From the NCBI RefSeq assembly GCF_029626025.1, contig NZ_JARUBF010000001.1:3348001-3412000 (forward strand): a stretch of DNA of 64,000 nt. Direction: 5' to 3'. Positions 17,421 to 25,276 of this stretch are shown here, piece by piece (positions within the stretch are counted from its first letter, which is position 1; each line of letters opens with the position of its first letter). The notes under the pieces were generated by a model. That model ran no database searches, was not told where the DNA came from, and saw nothing but the letters and a program-made list of their open reading frames with translations. This DNA is from Solwaraspora sp. WMMD406. Its GTDB lineage: Bacteria > Actinomycetota > Actinomycetes > Mycobacteriales > Micromonosporaceae. Position numbers and translations under genes: made by a program.

Positions 17421-17689
17421 CGGACGTTGCCTCCCGTACGCGTGGAGATGGCACCCGCCGCCGGTCGACTGTTGTCGCAGGTGGCGGGCAGGTTGACGCA
17501 CCCGGCCGACCGACAGGCGACGCCGGCCGACCGGGCTTCTTGCGGGACAACCACTCCGGTTTGCAGACCAGGGAGCGGCGCGGAGACAGCTTTACATGTG
17601 CGCCCATACGAAGCAACCCATGAGCGCCAATTTCTTGCCATACAAAGCTGGCGCGTGATCAAATGGGTGCGCAGATCAGGGAGCCGCCC

Positions 17690-17923
17690 ATGCCCGCCAA
17701 GCCCAAGTGGGAGAAGATCGCCGACCACCTTCGGAGCCAGATCGCCTCCGGTGAGCTGGCACCAGGCGACAAGCTTCCGTCCACCGCTCAGCTGTGCAAG
17801 GAGCACGACGTGTCAGCGATCGTCGTGCGCCAAGCCATCTTCAAGCTTCGGACCGAAGGGTTGATCGAAGGCGTACAGGGCGTCGGCGTGTTCGTCGTAG
17901 ACCCAAACGACCAGCAGGGCTGA
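17690..17923 (+). CDS. HTH-only GntR-type regulator, copy 1
   Basis: A 77-residue protein from the ATG at 17690 (GGGAG, 6-base spacing; an earlier ATG at 17663 lacks a ribosome site). It is essentially one winged helix-turn-helix of the GntR type: KWEKIADHLRSQIASGELAP, LPSTAQLCKEHDVSAIVVRQ, then the wing ending in GVGVFVVDPND. No effector domain follows, so it is a minimal DNA-binding protein, perhaps sensing nothing itself or acting with a partner. It is the first of three related genes in a row and is divergent from the three-gene operon at 17420-15800. Confidence 0.85.
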   Translation: MPAKPKWEKIADHLRSQIASGELAPGDKLPSTAQLCKEHDVSAIVVRQAIFKLRTEGLIEGVQGVGVFVVDPNDQQG

Positions 17924-18048
17924 ACCCCTGCTGGTCGGCAGGGAAGACGTTCGGACGCCCTGGTGGCCCGGCGGACATTGACGGTGACCTGGCGAGTCAG
18001 CCGCTACCGGCCGAGTGGCGACAGCGCTGATCGGGGGGAGGGCCGGCG

Positions 18049-18288
18049 ATGCCGCCGAGCGCCAAGTGGGTGGGCCTCGCCGCTCGCATCCGCAAGCAGA
18101 TCGCGACCGGCGAGCTGTCGCCCGGCGCGAAGTTGCCATCCACGTCGCAGCTCTGCGCCGAGCACAACGTGTCGGCGATTGTCGTCCGCAACGCGATGAT
18201 CGCGCTCAAGGCCGAAGGCCTGGTCGTCGGCGTGCCCGGTGTCGGCGTCTTCGTCGTCGACGCCAACGAGGCCACCGGTGGGTCGTAG
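18049..18288 (+). CDS. HTH-only GntR-type regulator, copy 2
   Basis: A 79-residue winged-helix protein with a strong ribosome site (GGGGAGGG, 6 bases before the ATG). It is a close paralogue of copy 1: both share KLPSTxQLC, EHxVSAIVVR, the AEGL/TEGL turn and the closing GVGVFVVD. It has no ligand domain. Separate ribosome sites and ~125-base gaps between copies suggest tandem duplication with individual retention. Confidence 0.85.
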   Translation: MPPSAKWVGLAARIRKQIATGELSPGAKLPSTSQLCAEHNVSAIVVRNAMIALKAEGLVVGVPGVGVFVVDANEATGGS

Positions 18289-18390
18289 CTGGAAGCCCGC
18301 GTTTGTATCTGCGAACGGCTTGGCCGTGGTCTTGGCTACGCTGGGTTTGTTGCCCATCTACTCGGGTGCTTGGAGTGGTGACCTCGGATC

Positions 18391-18627
18391 ATGCCTTACG
18401 CCGTGCCCCTTTGGAAATCGATCCGTGACGACCTCCGTGCGCAGGTCAAAGCAGGGCTGTTGAAGCCGGGCGACCGGATTCCGACCACTCGGAAGCTGAT
18501 GGAGCAACACTCGACGACCTCGGCAACCGTGCGCCGTGCCGTCGACTCGATGATCGAGTCCGGCGAACTCGTCGGCAGGCAGGGCCTCGGCGTGTTTGTC
18601 ATCGACCCGAACGAGGTGCGGAGCTGA
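18391..18627 (+). CDS. HTH-only GntR-type regulator, copy 3
   Basis: A 78-residue winged-helix protein (LWKSIRDDLRAQVKAGLLKP, RKLMEQHSTTSATVRRAVDS, ending GLGVFVIDPNE). It is more diverged from copies 1 and 2 than they are from each other, but shares length and the GxGVFVxDPNE end. The ribosome site is weak (GGTG about 10 bases upstream). It lies tail to tail with the lower-GC gene at 18646. Confidence 0.82.
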   Translation: MPYAVPLWKSIRDDLRAQVKAGLLKPGDRIPTTRKLMEQHSTTSATVRRAVDSMIESGELVGRQGLGVFVIDPNEVRS

Positions 18628-18645: not shown

Positions 18646-19623
18646 TCAGAGGGATTCCTTGATCTGAAGAACGATCGGCCCATCGCTGGATGGAGCGATC
18701 AGGGCCTCGTAATTGATGTTGCGATTCTCCATCTTTGCTTCGCCGATCAACTTGTAACGAACGTGTAACGCAAATGTGCCACTGATTCGGTAGATTCCGA
18801 ACTCTTTGTCAAAATAAGGGCGCGCTGTCAGAGTGGGATCCCCAGCTACTGACCACTTGACTTCAGTGGCACCGGGCGAGAGTTTCCACTCAGGGCAACC
18901 TGAAGGCATGGTCGGGCCAGTGTCGCTCACGCACTGTGCGAAGGCGTACTTCAGATTCGCCTCCATCGGTTCCCATGCTTGCTTGGGATCTTGCTTCACT
19001 ATTTCGGGATCGTTTGGGTGCGAATGCTTATCGATCTTCTGGACATCGAGTTTGCCGTCGGTCCAGCCGACCTTCGCCCAGTATTTCATCAGCGTCACTG
19101 TGCGATTCGGGCTCCCTGAGATGGTGTATTCCGCTAGAACTACAGCGGTCCCAAGTATATCGAAACGGCCCTCGTCTTTGCTGTACCGAATGACCGGATG
19201 ATCAAGAGGGTTTTCAAGGAAGGTCCACAGCACGGAAGATACACTTAGTTCACCTGTGATGGATTGGGGGCAGTTCGAGGGAGCTGCTGACGTGGACCGC
19301 TGGCACCTATCGAACCAGTCGGCAACGGCAGCGACTACGGCATCCTGTTTGACGTCTGGCGGCCACGGATCTGACTCCGTTGGGAATGGCTCGCTGCCCC
19401 CAAAGACCATGTAGGCAACGACGGCTAGTACTATCACAGCGAACGCCCCAATGCCTCCGCCGGCAGTCGCTACGCTACCGTTACTGATGGCGGAATGCGA
19501 CGATTCTTCGTAGTCTTCACTGTCTTGGTAGCCGAAATCTGGGCCGAAGACGTTGATTTCTATGTGGTCTCCTGCGGTGTTGTTTACGTCGCCCTGGGCG
19601 GTGTATCCAGTCTGATTCGTCAT
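18646..19623 (-). CDS. Single-pass membrane protein, last gene of the four-gene operon
   Basis: A 325-residue protein of unknown family. The cytosolic N-terminus carries TGYTAQGDVNNTAGDHIEIN. A TM helix follows at ~55-74 (GGIGAFAVIVLAVVAYMVFG), then an outer domain of ~250 residues with paired cysteines (DRCQRS, SNCPQS, AQCVSD, SGCPEW) and beta-rich segments. Its ATG overlaps the stop of the upstream gene (ATGA). Base composition is visibly lower in GC than in neighbouring genes, suggesting acquisition. It is the last gene of a unit whose third gene is split by an IS, so its transcription may be reduced. Confidence 0.8.
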   Translation of the reverse strand: MTNQTGYTAQGDVNNTAGDHIEINVFGPDFGYQDSEDYEESSHSAISNGSVATAGGGIGAFAVIVLAVVAYMVFGGSEPFPTESDPWPPDVKQDAVVAAVADWFDRCQRSTSAAPSNCPQSITGELSVSSVLWTFLENPLDHPVIRYSKDEGRFDILGTAVVLAEYTISGSPNRTVTLMKYWAKVGWTDGKLDVQKIDKHSHPNDPEIVKQDPKQAWEPMEANLKYAFAQCVSDTGPTMPSGCPEWKLSPGATEVKWSVAGDPTLTARPYFDKEFGIYRISGTFALHVRYKLIGEAKMENRNINYEALIAPSSDGPIVLQIKESL

Positions 19624-19901
19624 CTGGTCTCACCGTCCGGATGGCGTCGGCCTCGAACGTAGTTGTCACCTGCGACGTTAAACAGGTCACCCTTGAGGGT
19701 GTATCCGTTCTGGTGTACGATTCGCCCGGCATTACTTGAGGTGTTGTCGGGGTCGCTTTGAGTGTGCCTGCTAGAGCCTGTGCCGCGGAGCGCAATGATC
19801 AACCCGAGGATTGCGACGGGAAGAGCGAATATGTTCGCCCAGGCCGCAGCACCGCTGAGGCTTCCGCTCGTGATCATGATCACCGAAGCGATGATGATCA
19901 A
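19620..19901 (-). CDS. Residual 3' ORF of the IS-split membrane gene
   Basis: 93 residues can still be read from a TTG at 19901 (or an ATG at 19877). They contain two hydrophobic segments and a cytosolic tail with NGYTLKGDLFNVAGDNYVRG. The same GYTxxGDxxNxAGD pattern opens the next protein (18646-19623). No ribosome site precedes the TTG, so expression is doubtful. It is best seen as the 3' part of the gene described at 19620-20905. Confidence 0.6.
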   Translation of the reverse strand: MIIIASVIMITSGSLSGAAAWANIFALPVAILGLIIALRGTGSSRHTQSDPDNTSSNAGRIVHQNGYTLKGDLFNVAGDNYVRGRRHPDGETR

Positions 19902-19917
19902 GAAAAGTGTAGTAACA

Positions 19918-20801
19918 GAGGTCTATTCACAGGCCATCCTGTAGAAGTGCAACCCGATAACACAGGAGATCGTTTCTGTGAAGGTCGCGAGCGGTCTGCG
20001 GTAGTCGGTGTGCAGGATCCGCCATGTCTTCAGGTTCGCGACGACCTGTTCCACAACCCAGCGGATCTTGTTGACCTGCCTGTTGTATTCCTTCTGCCAT
20101 TCCGCGAGCTCGCCACCTTTGGGCTTCTTGTACGGGGTGATCATGCCGTTGCCGACGTAGCCCTTGTCACCGATCCAGTCTCCGGGATTCAGGGTGACGA
20201 GGACCCCGGTGTCGTTGATCGCGTACGAGTCGTGGTGGTTGCCGGTGACGGGATCGGAGATCCAGGCGAGCGCGCCGTCGAGGGTGCAGGCGACCTGGAC
20301 GCTCATGCCCGTGGTCTTGTGCTTGCCGGAGTACAGACAGCGGTGCGTGCGCCATGACCAGCAGGGAAGCAGGGTGCCGTCGACGATGTACTGGTCGGTC
20401 GGGCTGAGGTCGTCGGCTGTCGGTACGAACTCCGTCAGCACGCGATCGAGGACCGGGGTGATGCCGGTTACCGCTCGCGAGATCGTCGGCTGGGAGACGC
20501 CGTGTGCTTCGGCGATCTCCGCTTGGACGCGGTTGCGACGCATGTAGGTCAACGCGACGACGACAGCGCGGTAGAGACCAAGGACCGGGGGCCACGGCTC
20601 CACATCCAGATCCTGGCATTCCGCTCGGACCAGCACGCAGAGGTCGCGGATCTGGTCCGTGGTGAAGCCAGTGGTATGATACATGTTCGGCGGTCCGCTT
20701 TTCTTTGTGATGTTGTGTGGTAACTCCATCCTACGGAAGAGCGGATCGTCCTTTTATTGGGGGTCTACTGTAGCGGGTCGGAGGCCTGCTGAATAAGCCT
20801 C
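19918..20801 (-). mobile_element. IS5-type insertion sequence, 884 bp, complete
   Basis: The ends are imperfect inverted repeats: GAGGTCTATTCACAGGCC at 19918-19935, and GAGGCTTATTCAGCAGGCC read on the minus strand at 20801-20783. The trinucleotide ACA flanks both sides (19915-19917, 20802-20804) as a target duplication; 3-bp duplications occur in IS5 subgroups such as ISL2 and IS1031. One intact transposase gene fills the element, and its stop codon lies inside the left repeat. It looks recent and possibly still mobile. Confidence 0.88.
19923..20684 (-). CDS. IS5-type DDE transposase
   Basis: A 253-residue transposase from the ATG at 20684; an ATG at 20729 would add 15 residues. The N-terminus holds an HTH (AEIAEAHGVSQPTISRAV). 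The catalytic triad is readable: D in YIVDGTLLP, D in WIGDKGYVG and E in RWVVEQVVANLK, with the DDE_4-type spacing. It appears full length and undamaged, so the element may be active. Confidence 0.92.
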   Translation of the reverse strand: MYHTTGFTTDQIRDLCVLVRAECQDLDVEPWPPVLGLYRAVVVALTYMRRNRVQAEIAEAHGVSQPTISRAVTGITPVLDRVLTEFVPTADDLSPTDQYIVDGTLLPCWSWRTHRCLYSGKHKTTGMSVQVACTLDGALAWISDPVTGNHHDSYAINDTGVLVTLNPGDWIGDKGYVGNGMITPYKKPKGGELAEWQKEYNRQVNKIRWVVEQVVANLKTWRILHTDYRRPLATFTETISCVIGLHFYRMACE

Positions 20802-20917
20802 ACAGTCCAACGTCGGTTTGGCACGGTGTCGATGATAGACGAGCCAAGCAATCCAGATGGTGGCCGTGGCAGCGACCGTTGTGGATCAATCTGTCTCTTG
20901 TCCATTCTGTCGTTCTT

Positions 20918-21619
20918 CTACAGATTAGACAAGTATGCCTTGAGGCTCTTCGTGGCCTGGTGGGTGAGGACGGCGGCTTCTTCGATGTTGGCGCGGGACA
21001 GCTCAGCCCAGGTGTAGATCTCCTGCGTGCGGTCCTGCCGTCCGCCGGCAAGCAGCTGCGCCAAGCCGAGCTGGCTCGCTCGCATCGCGTTGGCCACGTT
21101 CGCCAGCTTCGCCTGCTGGGTCTCGATCTCGTCGAGGATCTGCCGGAGCCGCCCGAGGTACCCGCCGGCTGACCCCGTCTCCGGTCCACCCCGAGGCCGG
21201 GTGAGCCGGCGGGGCCGATGGGGTGGCGCACGTCGTGGTTCCCGTCCCGCCGGATCGACCGCCCGAAGCACCGGCTTTAGCTCACCCGTACTCGGGATCG
21301 CCGCTGGGGGCTCGCCATCCGATGGACCCTGCTCGCCATCATCGGGCTTCCGGCTCATCAAGCGGTCGACGGCCGTACCGATGGCGGACTTGCCCACCAC
21401 CCCGAGGATCGCGCCCGCGATCGCGCCACCGGTAGCGGCTGTCGACGATGGCACGGGGAGACCGGCCTTCGTCGAGGCCAGCCCGAGCAACATGCCGGCG
21501 GCGGCACCGCCCAGCTCGGCCAACTTGCCGAGTGACTCCTTCGACAACTCCCGGCGGAACTGCTGGCCGTAGGTCTCGGCCTGCTGCTGACCTTTGCGCT
21601 GCTTCCGGCCGTACCTCAT
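20918..21619 (-). CDS. Glycine-zipper membrane-associated protein, second gene of the four-gene operon
   Basis: A 233-residue protein whose ATG overlaps the upstream stop (ATGA). A basic, glutamine-rich N-terminus (RYGRKQRKGQQQAETYGQQF) is followed by two short hydrophobic Gly/Ala segments, at ~36-50 (LGGAAAGMLLGLAST) and ~62-80 (ATGGAIAGAILGVVGKSAIG). This pattern is typical of glycine-zipper membrane-inserting proteins. A proline/arginine-rich linker then leads to a helical C-terminus (YLGRLRQILDEIETQQAKLA). Pore formation is conceivable but unproven. The next start in the unsplit operon lies 13 bases downstream. Confidence 0.75.
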   Translation of the reverse strand: MRYGRKQRKGQQQAETYGQQFRRELSKESLGKLAELGGAAAGMLLGLASTKAGLPVPSSTAATGGAIAGAILGVVGKSAIGTAVDRLMSRKPDDGEQGPSDGEPPAAIPSTGELKPVLRAVDPAGREPRRAPPHRPRRLTRPRGGPETGSAGGYLGRLRQILDEIETQQAKLANVANAMRASQLGLAQLLAGGRQDRTQEIYTWAELSRANIEEAAVLTHQATKSLKAYLSNL

Positions 21620-22254
21620 GTCTCGACGACCGGATCAAGGAAGGCGCATCCGGTGACGATCATCATCGGGAGATTGATCGCGACGTCGCGTGCTACCCCG
21701 GCCGACGACAGTTCTAGCAGCTTCTCGCCAGCGGCTTCCTCCTCCGACTGGTCGGCGTAGAAGGCGCACGCGTCCCACAAGTTGGCGTGCAGGAAGGCGT
21801 ACGACCACTGGGTGTAGACCTGGATGGGTACCGCGACCGCCGCCTTATCGCCGAAGCCGATCCGGTGCAGGTCGGGATCCTCAGGCGTGGAGCCGAGGCC
21901 CTGGGCGAGGGGGAGCAGCTTGTGGCGGCTGAAGACCGGTCGCAGGTCGCCGTCGGGGTCGAACTCGACGAGTAGGCCACGGTCGATCAGGTCGTCGACG
22001 TAGCTGGCGGCGTGCGGCTCCGGGCTCGGCGCGGTTTCCAGCATGCGTACCAGGGAATCGCGGTTGACCGTGAGCTTCGCGTGCTGGTCGGGGTAGAGGA
22101 AGGCAGCGGCCCAGACGGCGGCCTCGGCGTCGGTGAGCTCGACCAGGTCGTCACCGAGGTGTACCTCGTAGCATTCCGGCGTCGGGTCCGGTGGGCGGAC
22201 GTACCGGTATCGGGGACCCATGCTCAGCCCGGCGGGCACGATCACAGTCGACAT
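21616..22254 (-). CDS. Unknown 212-residue protein, first gene of the four-gene operon
   Basis: A soluble protein of no family I recognise. Features include DPTPECYEVHLGDDLVELTD, a helical segment (EAAVWAAAFLYP), a winged-helix-like stretch (RDSLVRMLETA, YVDDLIDRGLLVEFDPDG) and a conserved end (NLPMMIVTGCAFLDPVV). A second copy, at 27354-27992, is about 83% identical over the full 212 residues with no gaps (35 differences by hand alignment). Conservation between copies includes PVFSRHKLLPLAQG and QVYTQWSYAFLH. It begins the operon and may be its regulator or sensor; this is inference. Confidence 0.8.
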   Translation of the reverse strand: MSTVIVPAGLSMGPRYRYVRPPDPTPECYEVHLGDDLVELTDAEAAVWAAAFLYPDQHAKLTVNRDSLVRMLETAPSPEPHAASYVDDLIDRGLLVEFDPDGDLRPVFSRHKLLPLAQGLGSTPEDPDLHRIGFGDKAAVAVPIQVYTQWSYAFLHANLWDACAFYADQSEEEAAGEKLLELSSAGVARDVAINLPMMIVTGCAFLDPVVET

Positions 22255-22741
22255 CAGGTCATCTTCCCAGCCTGGCTGACCTCGTCATCCCCGAAGCGGG
22301 CGACACCCGCCTCGACCGCTTCGACCGCACTCACCGCGACACCCTCCCCGTCGGACAATGTGCAGCAGCTTCGACCGTACCGGACGACGTTGATCCTCGG
22401 TCGGCTTCACACTGTCGGCTTCGCGCACGGATATTGGCGAGCGATCTCGTCGAATGGATAGCCCGCATGTCAGCTGAGAAGCTTCATCCGGTCGACCGCC
22501 GTTGAGCCATGGGCCACGAACACGAGCCCTTCGGCGGAACCAGGCGCGGAATCGCGCGACGTAAGGTGCCGGTCTGAGCCAGCGCGGGCGGTCCACCGAC
22601 AAGCGCCTCGAACACAGTGGACTTGATCCGTGTTCACCTGCCGGCTGCGGAGTGAATCACGGCGTCGACGTGGGGATGCCGTCCTTCGCTGGTTGGGCTG
22701 GGGTAGACGCCGCTGATGCGATTTGATGGAGGTCGTTAGTT
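22255..22741. other. Divergent intergenic region
   Basis: 487 bases between the four-gene operon and the exonuclease gene. I see no supported gene. GGAGG near 22725 is the exonuclease ribosome site. Short readable frames here lack ribosome sites and homology I can recognise. Promoters for both directions must lie here, but I cannot place them reliably. Confidence 0.4.
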
Positions 22742-24325
22742 ATGTTCACCCGTGGCGAACTTACCCGTCGAAGTGGTGCCGACCCGCGTGCCCTGACGTA
22801 CGCCGTCATTGACCTGGAGACCACCGGGCTGCACCCGAACAGAGGGTCCCGCGTCTGCGAGCTGGCGATTGTGCGGATGCGGGGTGACGGCGTCGTGCTC
22901 GACGAGTACTCGACCCTGATCAACCCCGGCATGCGGATCAACAACACCGAGTACCACGGCATCACCAACGCCGACGTCACACACGCCCCGACCTTTCAAC
23001 AAGCCGCCGGTGACATGTTGGCCTATCTCCGCGACGCCATCGTGGTCAGCCACAACCTGGATTACGAGGAGAAGTTCCTGACTGCCGAGTTCGGGCGGCT
23101 CGGCGTCAACCTCAGCGGTGTTCCCGGGCTGTGCTCGCTGGTCACCGCCCGTACCCAGATCGACAGCTGGGGCTACAAGCTGGAGAACGTCCATCACCTA
23201 ATCACGGGGGAGTGGCTCGACGCGGTGCACTCGGCGCTCGGCGACGCAAGGGCACTTGCCGTGACCCTGACGAAGTTCATCAACGGTGCGCCGCAGCGGC
23301 TTTCCTGGATCGGGCCGCAGCCCGTACCTGTTCCGGCGCTACCCCGCACCGGCATCGTCGCGCCCAGGGCTGCCGGGCTGCGCAAGGGCACCGAAGGATG
23401 GCTGGCCACCCTCACCGCACGGCTGCCGCGTATGGCGTACCCGCCGCAGCCCCGGCCGGGCGGGCTGGCCGACTACAGGGCGTTGCTCGGCCACGCCCTT
23501 GCCGATGGTCGGATCGTCGGTGAGGAAGCCAACCAACTGGCGGTAGCGGCCACCAACGCCGGACTGACCCAGACCACCGCCCGCCAGGTGCACGAAGAGT
23601 TCCTGGCGGACGCCCGAGCCCGAGCCGAGGCCGACGGCGTGGTCACCCCGGCAGAGCTGCGGGAACTGCAGCGGGCTGGCCGGGAACTTGCGTCGTCGCA
23701 CCTGATCAATGACCTGGAGCAAGCGGCAGCCGCCAACCGGGCCAGGGCAAACGGTCCACTCAAAGGCTGGCGAATTCTGCCGATCGGCGACTCGCCCGCC
23801 GTCACCGAGATAATCGACTATGCCGTGGAGCACGGTGCAAAGGCCGCCGTCAGCTTCACCAAGACGGTACGCCTGGTCGTCTGCGACGATCCGCTGGCCG
23901 ACGATCCTCGGTTGGCGAAGCCGGCCGCGTCCGGTGTCGACGTCCTTGCTCCGGAGCATGCTCGCAAGCTGCTGGAAGATGAGGCTGCGAAGCGGCCGAC
24001 CGGACTCTTCGCCGACCAGGCCGGCGAGCAGGTCGCCCAACGGATCGCGGCCGAACGCGCCAACTCGGGTCGACAGTCCCGACCCGAGTGGCACGGATCC
24101 TGGCGGAAGTACGAGCTGACCGACACCCAGTACCACCAGACGTTCGTTGCGCGGGATCGGAGTTGGACCGAGCCGTACGTGCATCAGGTCGACATGGCGG
24201 AGCTGCGCGAGCGGCAGGCCAGGGCCGCGTCGGCGACGCGCAGCAGCGGTTGCGCGGTGGTGCTCCTCGCCGGTGGCGCGGTTGCGGCCGGCCTCGCCGA
24301 ACTCGTCCGTCAGATCGTGGCGTAG
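22742..24325 (+). CDS. DEDDh exonuclease with BRCT-like domain and C-terminal TM segment
   Basis: A 527-residue protein. Residues 18-180 are a DnaQ-type 3'-5' exonuclease domain: D24 and E26 in VIDLETTG, then SHNLDYEEKF, and the final motif HSALGDAR. A middle helical region (~240-320, ALADGRIVGEEANQLAVAA) may be a TerB-like fold. Residues ~343-410 (GWRILPIGDSPAVTEIIDYA, then VRLVVCDDPLADDPRL) resemble a BRCT domain. A short hydrophobic C-terminal segment (CAVVLLAGGAVAAGLAELV) may anchor it to the membrane. DnaQ-BRCT proteins act in DNA repair or defence. It is convergent with the HNH gene, 21 bases apart. Confidence 0.85.
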   Translation: MFTRGELTRRSGADPRALTYAVIDLETTGLHPNRGSRVCELAIVRMRGDGVVLDEYSTLINPGMRINNTEYHGITNADVTHAPTFQQAAGDMLAYLRDAIVVSHNLDYEEKFLTAEFGRLGVNLSGVPGLCSLVTARTQIDSWGYKLENVHHLITGEWLDAVHSALGDARALAVTLTKFINGAPQRLSWIGPQPVPVPALPRTGIVAPRAAGLRKGTEGWLATLTARLPRMAYPPQPRPGGLADYRALLGHALADGRIVGEEANQLAVAATNAGLTQTTARQVHEEFLADARARAEADGVVTPAELRELQRAGRELASSHLINDLEQAAAANRARANGPLKGWRILPIGDSPAVTEIIDYAVEHGAKAAVSFTKTVRLVVCDDPLADDPRLAKPAASGVDVLAPEHARKLLEDEAAKRPTGLFADQAGEQVAQRIAAERANSGRQSRPEWHGSWRKYELTDTQYHQTFVARDRSWTEPYVHQVDMAELRERQARAASATRSSGCAVVLLAGGAVAAGLAELVRQIVA

Positions 24326-24346: not shown

Positions 24347-25276
24347 TCAGTGCTGGAAGACCGTGTCGGTGTGCCATTCGAGCAGGTCGTGGTCGGGGCG
24401 GCGGGCCTTCTGGTCGGGTACGGCGATCTGGGTGCCGGCGCGGGCGTAGAACTGTTCGCCGTTGCCGAAGTCGTCGCGCAGGCGTCGGCTGACCAGCAGC
24501 CGGTATTTCGGGTCGACGCCCAGGTAGCCCTGGTCGAAGAGGATGTGTACGTCGGCCCGCAGCAGCATGCCGTTGTCGATGCGGTGCTCGCCGCCGGAGG
24601 CCACCGGGCGGATATGCGCGGCCTGCAGCGCGGGCCGCAGCTTGCTGTCGGTGATCGCGCAGCGCCGGGAGTAGGTGTCGAGGACGACGGCCTTGAACGA
24701 CTGCTGCCCGAGGCGCTGCGGCCGGAGCCGGGGGTCGCCGAACACCGGTCCCGGCCGGTGCCAGGTGCCTTCCGGATCGACGCGGACCTCGCCGCCGAGC
24801 AGGAGTTTCGTCAGCTGCTCGAAGTAGTCGAAGTGTGTGCCCGACGACAGGTCGTACGTCTTGCCCTGGGTGAGGTTCGGCGAGAACTCCGGCGGGGGCT
24901 CCGGCTGACGGCCGGCGGGGAAGAAGACCGTGTCGCGGATGAAGATGCAGCCGATGACCGGGTCCTCGCCGGGGCCGATCGGGTCCTTGCGGTACTTGCC
25001 GATGTCGCGTGCCATGTCGGCGAGGGAGCCCGCGCCGTTGGCCTCGCCGAACAGCCCCCACGCTTCCGAGAGCCGCAGCTTCGCGAAGCCGCTGAAGAAG
25101 CCGCCGCCGACGATCCGGTTGTGCGGGTAGCGGCTCTTGAAGAAGAACGGCTCGCCGGGGGTGAGAGTCTTGAAGCTGCCGCCTCCCGGCCGCCAGAAGT
25201 TGACCTCGTTGATCTGCGGCCGGGAGGCGAGGAAGCTGCGCCACTCGCCGTCGGTGACCCCCACAAACGCCTTCAC
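24347..25276 (-). CDS. HNH endonuclease with N-terminal PUA/EVE-like domain
   Basis: A 309-residue protein from a GTG at 25276. Residues 1-130 match a widespread EVE/PUA-superfamily-like domain (FFFKSRYPHNRIVGGGFFSG, AWGLFGEANGAGSLADM, IGCIFIRDTVFF) that is often fused to HNH nucleases. The C-terminal half has the HNH core: RRCAITDSKLRPALQAAHIRP, then DNGMLLRADVHILFDQG. EVE/SRA-type readers fused to HNH domains are known to cut modified DNA (type IV restriction), so a modification-dependent restriction role is likely. It sits in an accessory island beside an IS and an exonuclease. Confidence 0.83.
   Translation of the reverse strand: MKAFVGVTDGEWRSFLASRPQINEVNFWRPGGGSFKTLTPGEPFFFKSRYPHNRIVGGGFFSGFAKLRLSEAWGLFGEANGAGSLADMARDIGKYRKDPIGPGEDPVIGCIFIRDTVFFPAGRQPEPPPEFSPNLTQGKTYDLSSGTHFDYFEQLTKLLLGGEVRVDPEGTWHRPGPVFGDPRLRPQRLGQQSFKAVVLDTYSRRCAITDSKLRPALQAAHIRPVASGGEHRIDNGMLLRADVHILFDQGYLGVDPKYRLLVSRRLRDDFGNGEQFYARAGTQIAVPDQKARRPDHDLLEWHTDTVFQH

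Follow-up and report, generated by a model that had tools for sequence, protein, structure and literature searches.

Bacterial amyloid signaling sequence (BASS) systems, going by passages of PMC7889193, PMC12261475, and PMC8086366, are NLR/Bell gene pairs of filamentous bacteria. The bacterial TRADD-N/EACC2-type conflict systems are presented, in passages of PMC8195603, as two-component systems built on folded adaptor domains, some of them with extracellular domains. A 2021 commentary (PMC7889193, in part) raises the question of whether bacterial signaling amyloids also take part in NLR-independent pathways and describes the available surveys as biased toward NLR/executor architectures. Here, we describe a two-gene unit, C-D, in a 64,000-nucleotide stretch of the genome of Solwaraspora sp. 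WMMD406 (contig NZ_JARUBF010000001.1, positions 3,348,001 to 3,412,000; hereafter, the window), where gene C is split by an insertion sequence (IS) of the IS5 type. Chances appear slightly better than even that C and D are an effector and a sensor that signal to each other by homotypic, probably amyloid, templating and that a recent IS insertion has hit the effector, C.

A Motif Shared by the C Tail and the D Head

The last ~40 residues of C and the first ~30 residues of D carry a common motif of ~25 residues, approximately Q-x-G, a spacer, and Q/V-x-N-V-x-G-D-Y, which varies in step between loci. D adjoins C in all 10 loci that encode close relatives of C. A full-length D is encoded at 15 loci (14 of 354 genomes of the same family), and in every case the tail of a small protein encoded upstream matches; at one of them, L049, the gene for this protein is itself frame-broken. 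C tails were scored against D heads by local alignment with BLOSUM62 in 11 of these 15 loci, leaving out the near-identical L042, L043, L045, and L046. Own tail/head pairs average 66.9 and foreign ones 31.7, and the observed sum is reached by none of 200,000 random pairings. Within the seven close loci, the respective averages are 66.3 and 36.7, and 2 of the 5040 pairings, the true one included, reach the observed sum. The tail of L047, one of the seven, scores higher with the head of another locus, and the tails and heads of three loci of a second type (type II, see below) are interchangeable in this scoring.

Recent gene conversion as the source of the tail/head likeness was rejected: at residues identical in tail and head (6 loci), the same codon is used in only 40 of 76 cases, which argues against recent copying at the DNA level. 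When a motif model built from 14 segments was searched in 10 genomes, every one of the 22 hits with E < 1e-7 was a C tail or a D head, 14 of these being the model's own segments; E then rises to 0.95 for the following hit.

Motif Replacement and Similarity to Amyloid Peptides

The ectodomain of D is found in 16 loci in 15 of the 354 family genomes at an E value of 3e-43 or better. These comprise 11 loci of the window type, 3 of type II (L068, L069, and L070), a single locus of a third type (L072), and a remnant (L071); the distant full-length relatives show 28 to 31% identity to the window D. The motif common to tail and head in the type II loci is quite different from that of the window type, and it is again the small upstream membrane protein that carries the motif of its D partner; the one such partner scanned (L070) has two hydrophobic spans. 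The partner in L072 is a protein of 139 amino acids with one weak hydrophobic stretch. Its tail contains 15 of the 21 residues of the Frankia BASS3 peptide ORT49035.1_103_123 (score 67, and 48 for the D head; 0 of 2000 shuffles each), a peptide for which a passage of PMC8086366 gives amyloid-type Fourier transform infrared (FTIR) spectra and Congo red staining. Three relatives of the L072 effector were found; the one neighbor scanned, an open reading frame (ORF) next to a 39%-identical relative, matches NB-ARC, the receptor type of the classical pairs, with an E value of 1.3e-6.

The tail of the window C scores 37 (0 of 2000 shuffles) against a second verified bacterial or archaeal peptide, the BASS3-like AEB69175.1_5_29 (PMC8086366, in part). 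Only 8 of the 14 close-family segments resemble this peptide at an uncorrected p < 0.05; at the same level, 1 of 14 resembles the BASS3 peptide and 2 of 14 resemble the fungal sigma peptide, the only eukaryotic motif compared. The type II pair L069, the only pair of its type in this comparison, has no clear match to either bacterial peptide. The receptor ectodomain is thus seen with three motifs, each of which recurs in the partner concerned, as though the motif had been exchanged in both partners in concert to re-wire the pair.

These data also bear on the alternative of a small membrane subunit inactivated by an IS in the ordinary way, in which the shared motif would be a non-amyloid docking site that holds C and D in a single complex. 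A constitutive binding pair would give the same linkage and covariation, and the low-confidence model of a C homolog comprises only two helices and a tail. However, the motif that has replaced the common one in L072 is close to a BASS3 peptide verified as amyloid, and, to our knowledge, docking pairs seldom use one sequence on both sides or switch to another shared motif. Docking therefore seems unlikely, if well within consideration.

Domain Architecture of C and D

Hydropathy analysis of C indicates two hydrophobic spans. Neither the residual ORF of C nor a C homolog has a relevant match in Pfam or PADLOC, and no Bell model was identified in those libraries. D is predicted to cross the membrane once and to consist otherwise of the N-terminal head and two tandem repeats, each of which shows fold similarity to solved NTF2-like domains and contains an invariant pair of Cys residues. 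The ARC6/PARC6 intermembrane domain and VirB8-like NTF2 folds have 8 to 13% identity to the D ectodomain, a match of fold only that implies no function. A Pfam search with D returns no family at an E value of 1, hence no NB-ARC or NACHT NTPase. Assignment of D or C to a known PADLOC system was rejected, as neither has a match there.

The Insertion Sequence and the Interrupted Gene C

The first-pass annotation had placed an intact transposase between imperfect inverted ends with ACA on both sides, and these coordinates are borne out. The aligned ends are identical in 16 of 19 columns, with 2 mismatches and 1 gap, and the transposase, open over 268 amino acids, matches Pfam DDE_Tnp_4 (E 5.3e-27; 94.8 bits, cutoff 24.8) and, below the curated cutoff of 140 bits, NCBIfam NF033581 for the IS5 family (E 2.3e-18; 66.6 bits). 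As in the IS5 family, the element has a single DDE transposase with IS5-family profile matches, short inverted ends, and a 3-bp target duplication; duplications of 2 to 4 bp occur in several IS5 subgroups. The Solwaraspora genome contains 8 full-length copies, the window copy counted, all of 884 bp and all flanked by perfect 3-bp duplications (ACA, ATT, TAT, GTT, ATT, CGT, AGG, and CAA), which supports the proposed recent insertion of an IS5-type element. The window copy differs from the other seven at one position (552), silently for the transposase, and one of the other copies has one further difference. Matches to the IS are found in 4 of 6 congeners: three have full-length copies with 86 to 90% identity, plus partial ones with 83 to 98%, and the fourth has a 31-bp match only. 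Given the near-identity of the copies within this genome and the greater divergence of those in the congeners, the IS has probably multiplied recently within its own lineage.

Virtual excision of the 884 bp and one ACA restores, as claimed in that annotation, a frame of 399 nt (133 codons including the stop) that encodes 132 residues and contains no internal stop. Searched against the 354 family genomes, the joined protein matches 34 genomes at E ≤ 0.01, with 10 loci in 9 other genomes at 1e-17 or better. The other 24 genomes, own genome aside, have weak matches (E 1e-5 to 0.01, in frames of 78 to 1422 amino acids) and were left out of the homolog set. Homologs of the rebuilt protein thus exist, and they run past the junction rather than starting at the residual ORF: the alignments in all 10 strong loci begin at residues 17 to 26, ahead of the junction at residue 34. 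Neither outcome named in that annotation as refuting its reading has therefore occurred. On the evidence of these alignments, the reconstructed junction of C is correct.

The start of C is less certain. The proposed ATG (20905-20903) does follow the gene ahead of it, whose stop codon ends at 20918, at a distance of 13 nt; that it agrees independently with the junction and frame, as had been argued, does not hold, since all 10 relatives have a Met codon where the window C has Ile, at its residue 24 or 25. Upstream of the position of this Met, the C frame is, by eye, not common to all ten relatives. ATG-20905 is one of several possible starts.

Likewise, the earlier statement that the insertion removes half of a transmembrane helix needs correction. 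According to the hydropathy analysis, the residual ORF retains both hydrophobic segments and the entire tail motif, and the loss from the first helix amounts to its first few residues. The upstream half of C would give a 46-residue stub that ends within the IS. An insertional knock-out of C, as first proposed, is still likely; the qualification is that a 93-residue ORF is left, in which neither hydrophobic segment and no part of the tail motif is missing. C could conceivably survive through this ORF, with a restart at TTG 19901 giving a shortened protein under IS transcription, and D being transcribed from the IS as well. The TTG, which starts 22 nt beyond the transposase stop (last base 19923), opens an ORF that points in the same direction as the transposase and D, and the membrane segments and tail are kept. 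Yet there is no strong ribosome-binding site upstream of the TTG (by eye), and ~15 N-terminal residues conserved in the relatives, 2 of them basic, would be lost; such a restart is improbable.

Distribution and Decay of the C-D Unit

Outside the loci described above, matches to D are short and weak. The search with D matched 30 family genomes, 15 of which (plus a second place in G280) have only such matches, with E values of 3e-6 to 8e-4; the ectodomain search matched 20 genomes, 5 of them only in this manner. Four weak matches to D viewed by eye are three long HExxH proteins and one other membrane protein. L073, L074, and L075 encode long HExxH membrane proteins that share, by eye, a Cys-pair segment with the D ectodomain. 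The sensor module of D may be reused in other proteins. A genome scan with D alone gave 70 pattern matches, with no relative among them, and an alignment-based scan found 7 loci, on contigs that correspond in length to ones already in the set. Samples of the class (394 genomes) and of the phylum (396 genomes) contain C-D only in its own genome. Micromonospora matsumotoense has two C-D pairs, L042 and L043, located ~13 kb apart on one contig; Actinoplanes flavus likewise has an intact pair.

Three of the 16 loci are broken: the window C by the IS; the C gene of Actinoplanes sp. TFC3 (L049/L065), one of the ten close loci, by a frameshift downstream of the junction position; and the D gene of L071, whose remnant adjoins ORFs that resemble a transposase by eye. 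This proportion is compatible with a costly suicide system that is useful under certain conditions.

It could also be that an IS has recently entered a hypothetical gene that is dispensable and that nothing more has happened here, the motif likeness being a functionless relic of duplication. The IS is multicopy, C and D are absent from all 6 congeners, and the broken loci fit this explanation too. On the other hand, own tail/head pairs outscore foreign ones, and their codons differ. The two copies of a relic would be expected to diverge, and a joint exchange of the motif in C and D would not be expected of them. A relic of this kind must be rated very improbable.

A Proposed Mode of Action

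D would act as a membrane sensor, with the head motif taken as cytosolic, one span, and the two NTF2-like domains outside; C would be a small membrane effector in which a flexible linker connects two helices to a C-terminal tail with the motif of D. A signal perceived at the ectodomain would cause D to cluster, and the clustered heads would nucleate a homotypic assembly, probably an amyloid one of RHIM/BASS-like type, which the C tail would join. Clustered C hairpins might then damage or depolarize the cell's own membrane, leading to arrest or death as a defense response. Since the insertion parts the start of C from its membrane part, the strain is probably left with an orphan sensor and no working effector.

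The more specific version of this model, an amyloid signalosome whose transmembrane non-NLR receptor, with its sensor domain outside the cytoplasm, templates a two-span executor on the inside of the membrane, is tentative and falls somewhat short of an even chance. The broken loci are also compatible with plain dispensability, and D has no NLR-type NTPase (NB-ARC or NACHT), which tells against membership in BASS. If the sensor-effector reading is right, amyloid signaling inside the cell would be extended to sensing something outside the membrane. C-D is, in any case, a small expressible candidate with natural variants in three motifs, so that specificity and templating are directly testable. 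The insertion itself is ordinary, yet it strikes the candidate effector rather than the sensor.

Genomic Neighborhood

C-D is flanked by conserved genes (Table 1). The 233-residue border gene is 86 to 89% identical in 5 of 6 congeners, and the block 20919-22272 aligns at 89 to 91% in five congeners, with the alignment ending within 10 bp of the stop of this gene. At the other border, three short helix-turn-helix (HTH) ORFs (17663-17923, 18049-18288, and 18391-18627, plus strand) lie in tandem; they resemble GntR DNA-binding domains without a ligand domain (only the first was scanned, with E 3.6e-18), and matching DNA is present in 4 of 5 congeners. Between these borders, five congeners (L095 to L099) have four kinds of contents: a gene for a 326-residue protein (two congeners), one for a 436-residue protein, one for a 447-residue protein, and a pair of genes for proteins of 266 and 557 residues. 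The 557-residue protein matches ApeA N-terminal (E 5.7e-31) and Apea-HEPN (E 6.9e-19) and, in PADLOC, PDC-S58 and Cas13-ApeA; PADLOC matches the 447-residue protein weakly (E 1.6e-6) and none of the remaining three cargo proteins that were scanned. Judged by these conserved borders and differing contents, C-D is cargo in a variable slot, which is possibly a hot spot for new defense genes.

The description of C as a component of an operon thus holds for C-D, and not for the gene that precedes it. Neither of the two window genes upstream of C is found at any of the 10 relative C-D loci, and the preceding 233-residue gene is kept in congeners that have no C-D; it was therefore rejected as part of the unit.

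Near the slot, positions 22742-24325 (plus strand) encode a 527-residue exonuclease-domain protein that matches the PADLOC candidate defense family PDC-S48 almost from end to end (E 5e-235). A 309-residue protein with HNH restriction-type PADLOC matches (E 1.2e-18) is encoded at 24347-25276 on the minus strand.

Table 1. Positions of the C-D unit, the IS, and the bordering genes in the window
Feature	Position	Strand	Basis
Gene C (candidate effector), 5' part ahead of the IS	20805..20905	-	Start ATG at 20905 uncorroborated
3' part of gene C: both hydrophobic segments, linker, tail motif	19620..19917	-	Excision frame, homolog alignment, hydropathy
Residual ORF after insertion, TTG start, 93 amino acids	19620..19901	-	ORF list, hydropathy
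C-terminal tail motif of C	19647..19721	-	Motif model A4, E 4.0e-10 (segment in model); covariation
Gene D, 325 amino acids, candidate transmembrane sensor; 4-nt overlap with C	18646..19623	-	Beside C in relatives
N-terminal head motif of D, cognate of C tail	19549..19623	-	A4, E 1.7e-9 (segment in model); covariation
Predicted single membrane span, D residues 56-74	19402..19458	-	Hydropathy 2.42
D ectodomain: pair of NTF2-like domains in tandem (residues 84-204 and 211-325)	18646..19374	-	Fold similarity
IS5-type IS, 884 bp	19918..20801	.	8 near-identical own-genome copies, same ends
Left imperfect terminal inverted repeat of IS	19918..19935	+	End comparison
Right imperfect terminal inverted repeat of IS	20783..20801	-	End comparison
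Target-site duplication ACA, left copy	19915..19917	.	Flank comparison
Target-site duplication ACA, right copy	20802..20804	.	Flank comparison
Open DDE transposase gene, 268 amino acids	19923..20729	-	Pfam DDE_Tnp_4 and NCBIfam IS5 matches
Conserved gene bordering slot, 233 amino acids, outside C-D unit	20918..21619	-	Conserved in congeners
Conserved border gene, 212 amino acids	21616..22254	-	Conserved block
Three short GntR-type HTH ORFs, other slot border	17663..18627	+	ORF list, congener alignment

Comparison with Known Systems

The comparisons that follow refer to the known systems as they are presented in passages of the cited reports. A transmembrane or non-NLR bacterial amyloid receptor was not recognized in the literature searched, which covered few subscription papers or preprints, and passages of PMC8086366, PMC12261475, PMC7889193, PMC8195603, and PMC12881547 describe no such receptor.

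The TRADD-N/EACC2 systems resemble C-D in having two components and in that the partner can have an extracellular domain with membrane helices (PMC8195603). They differ by their folded TRADD-N or Death-like adaptors, with no short tail/head motif in the passages of that report, and are set apart from C-D on this description. The fungal NWD2/HET-S system and the mammalian RHIM necrosome share with C-D, as proposed here, motif templating from a sensor to a membrane-acting executor, whereas their sensors are NLRs or kinases (PMC7889193).

The closest likeness is to BASS. As there, adjacent genes carry a like short motif, at the C terminus of the effector and the N terminus of the receptor, and several motif families exist, with the distant L072 approaching a verified BASS3 peptide. 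Ten BASS families are described, and the window type bears only a partial likeness to a verified BASS3-like peptide. In contrast to BASS, where the receptor is a cytosolic NLR, D is predicted to cross the membrane once and has NTF2-like ectodomains, and the effector, in the window type and in the scanned type II locus, has two hydrophobic spans. Its receptor is not an NLR, so that C-D lacks a defining feature of those pairs; it is best placed outside BASS, as a putative variant with a BASS-like way of working.
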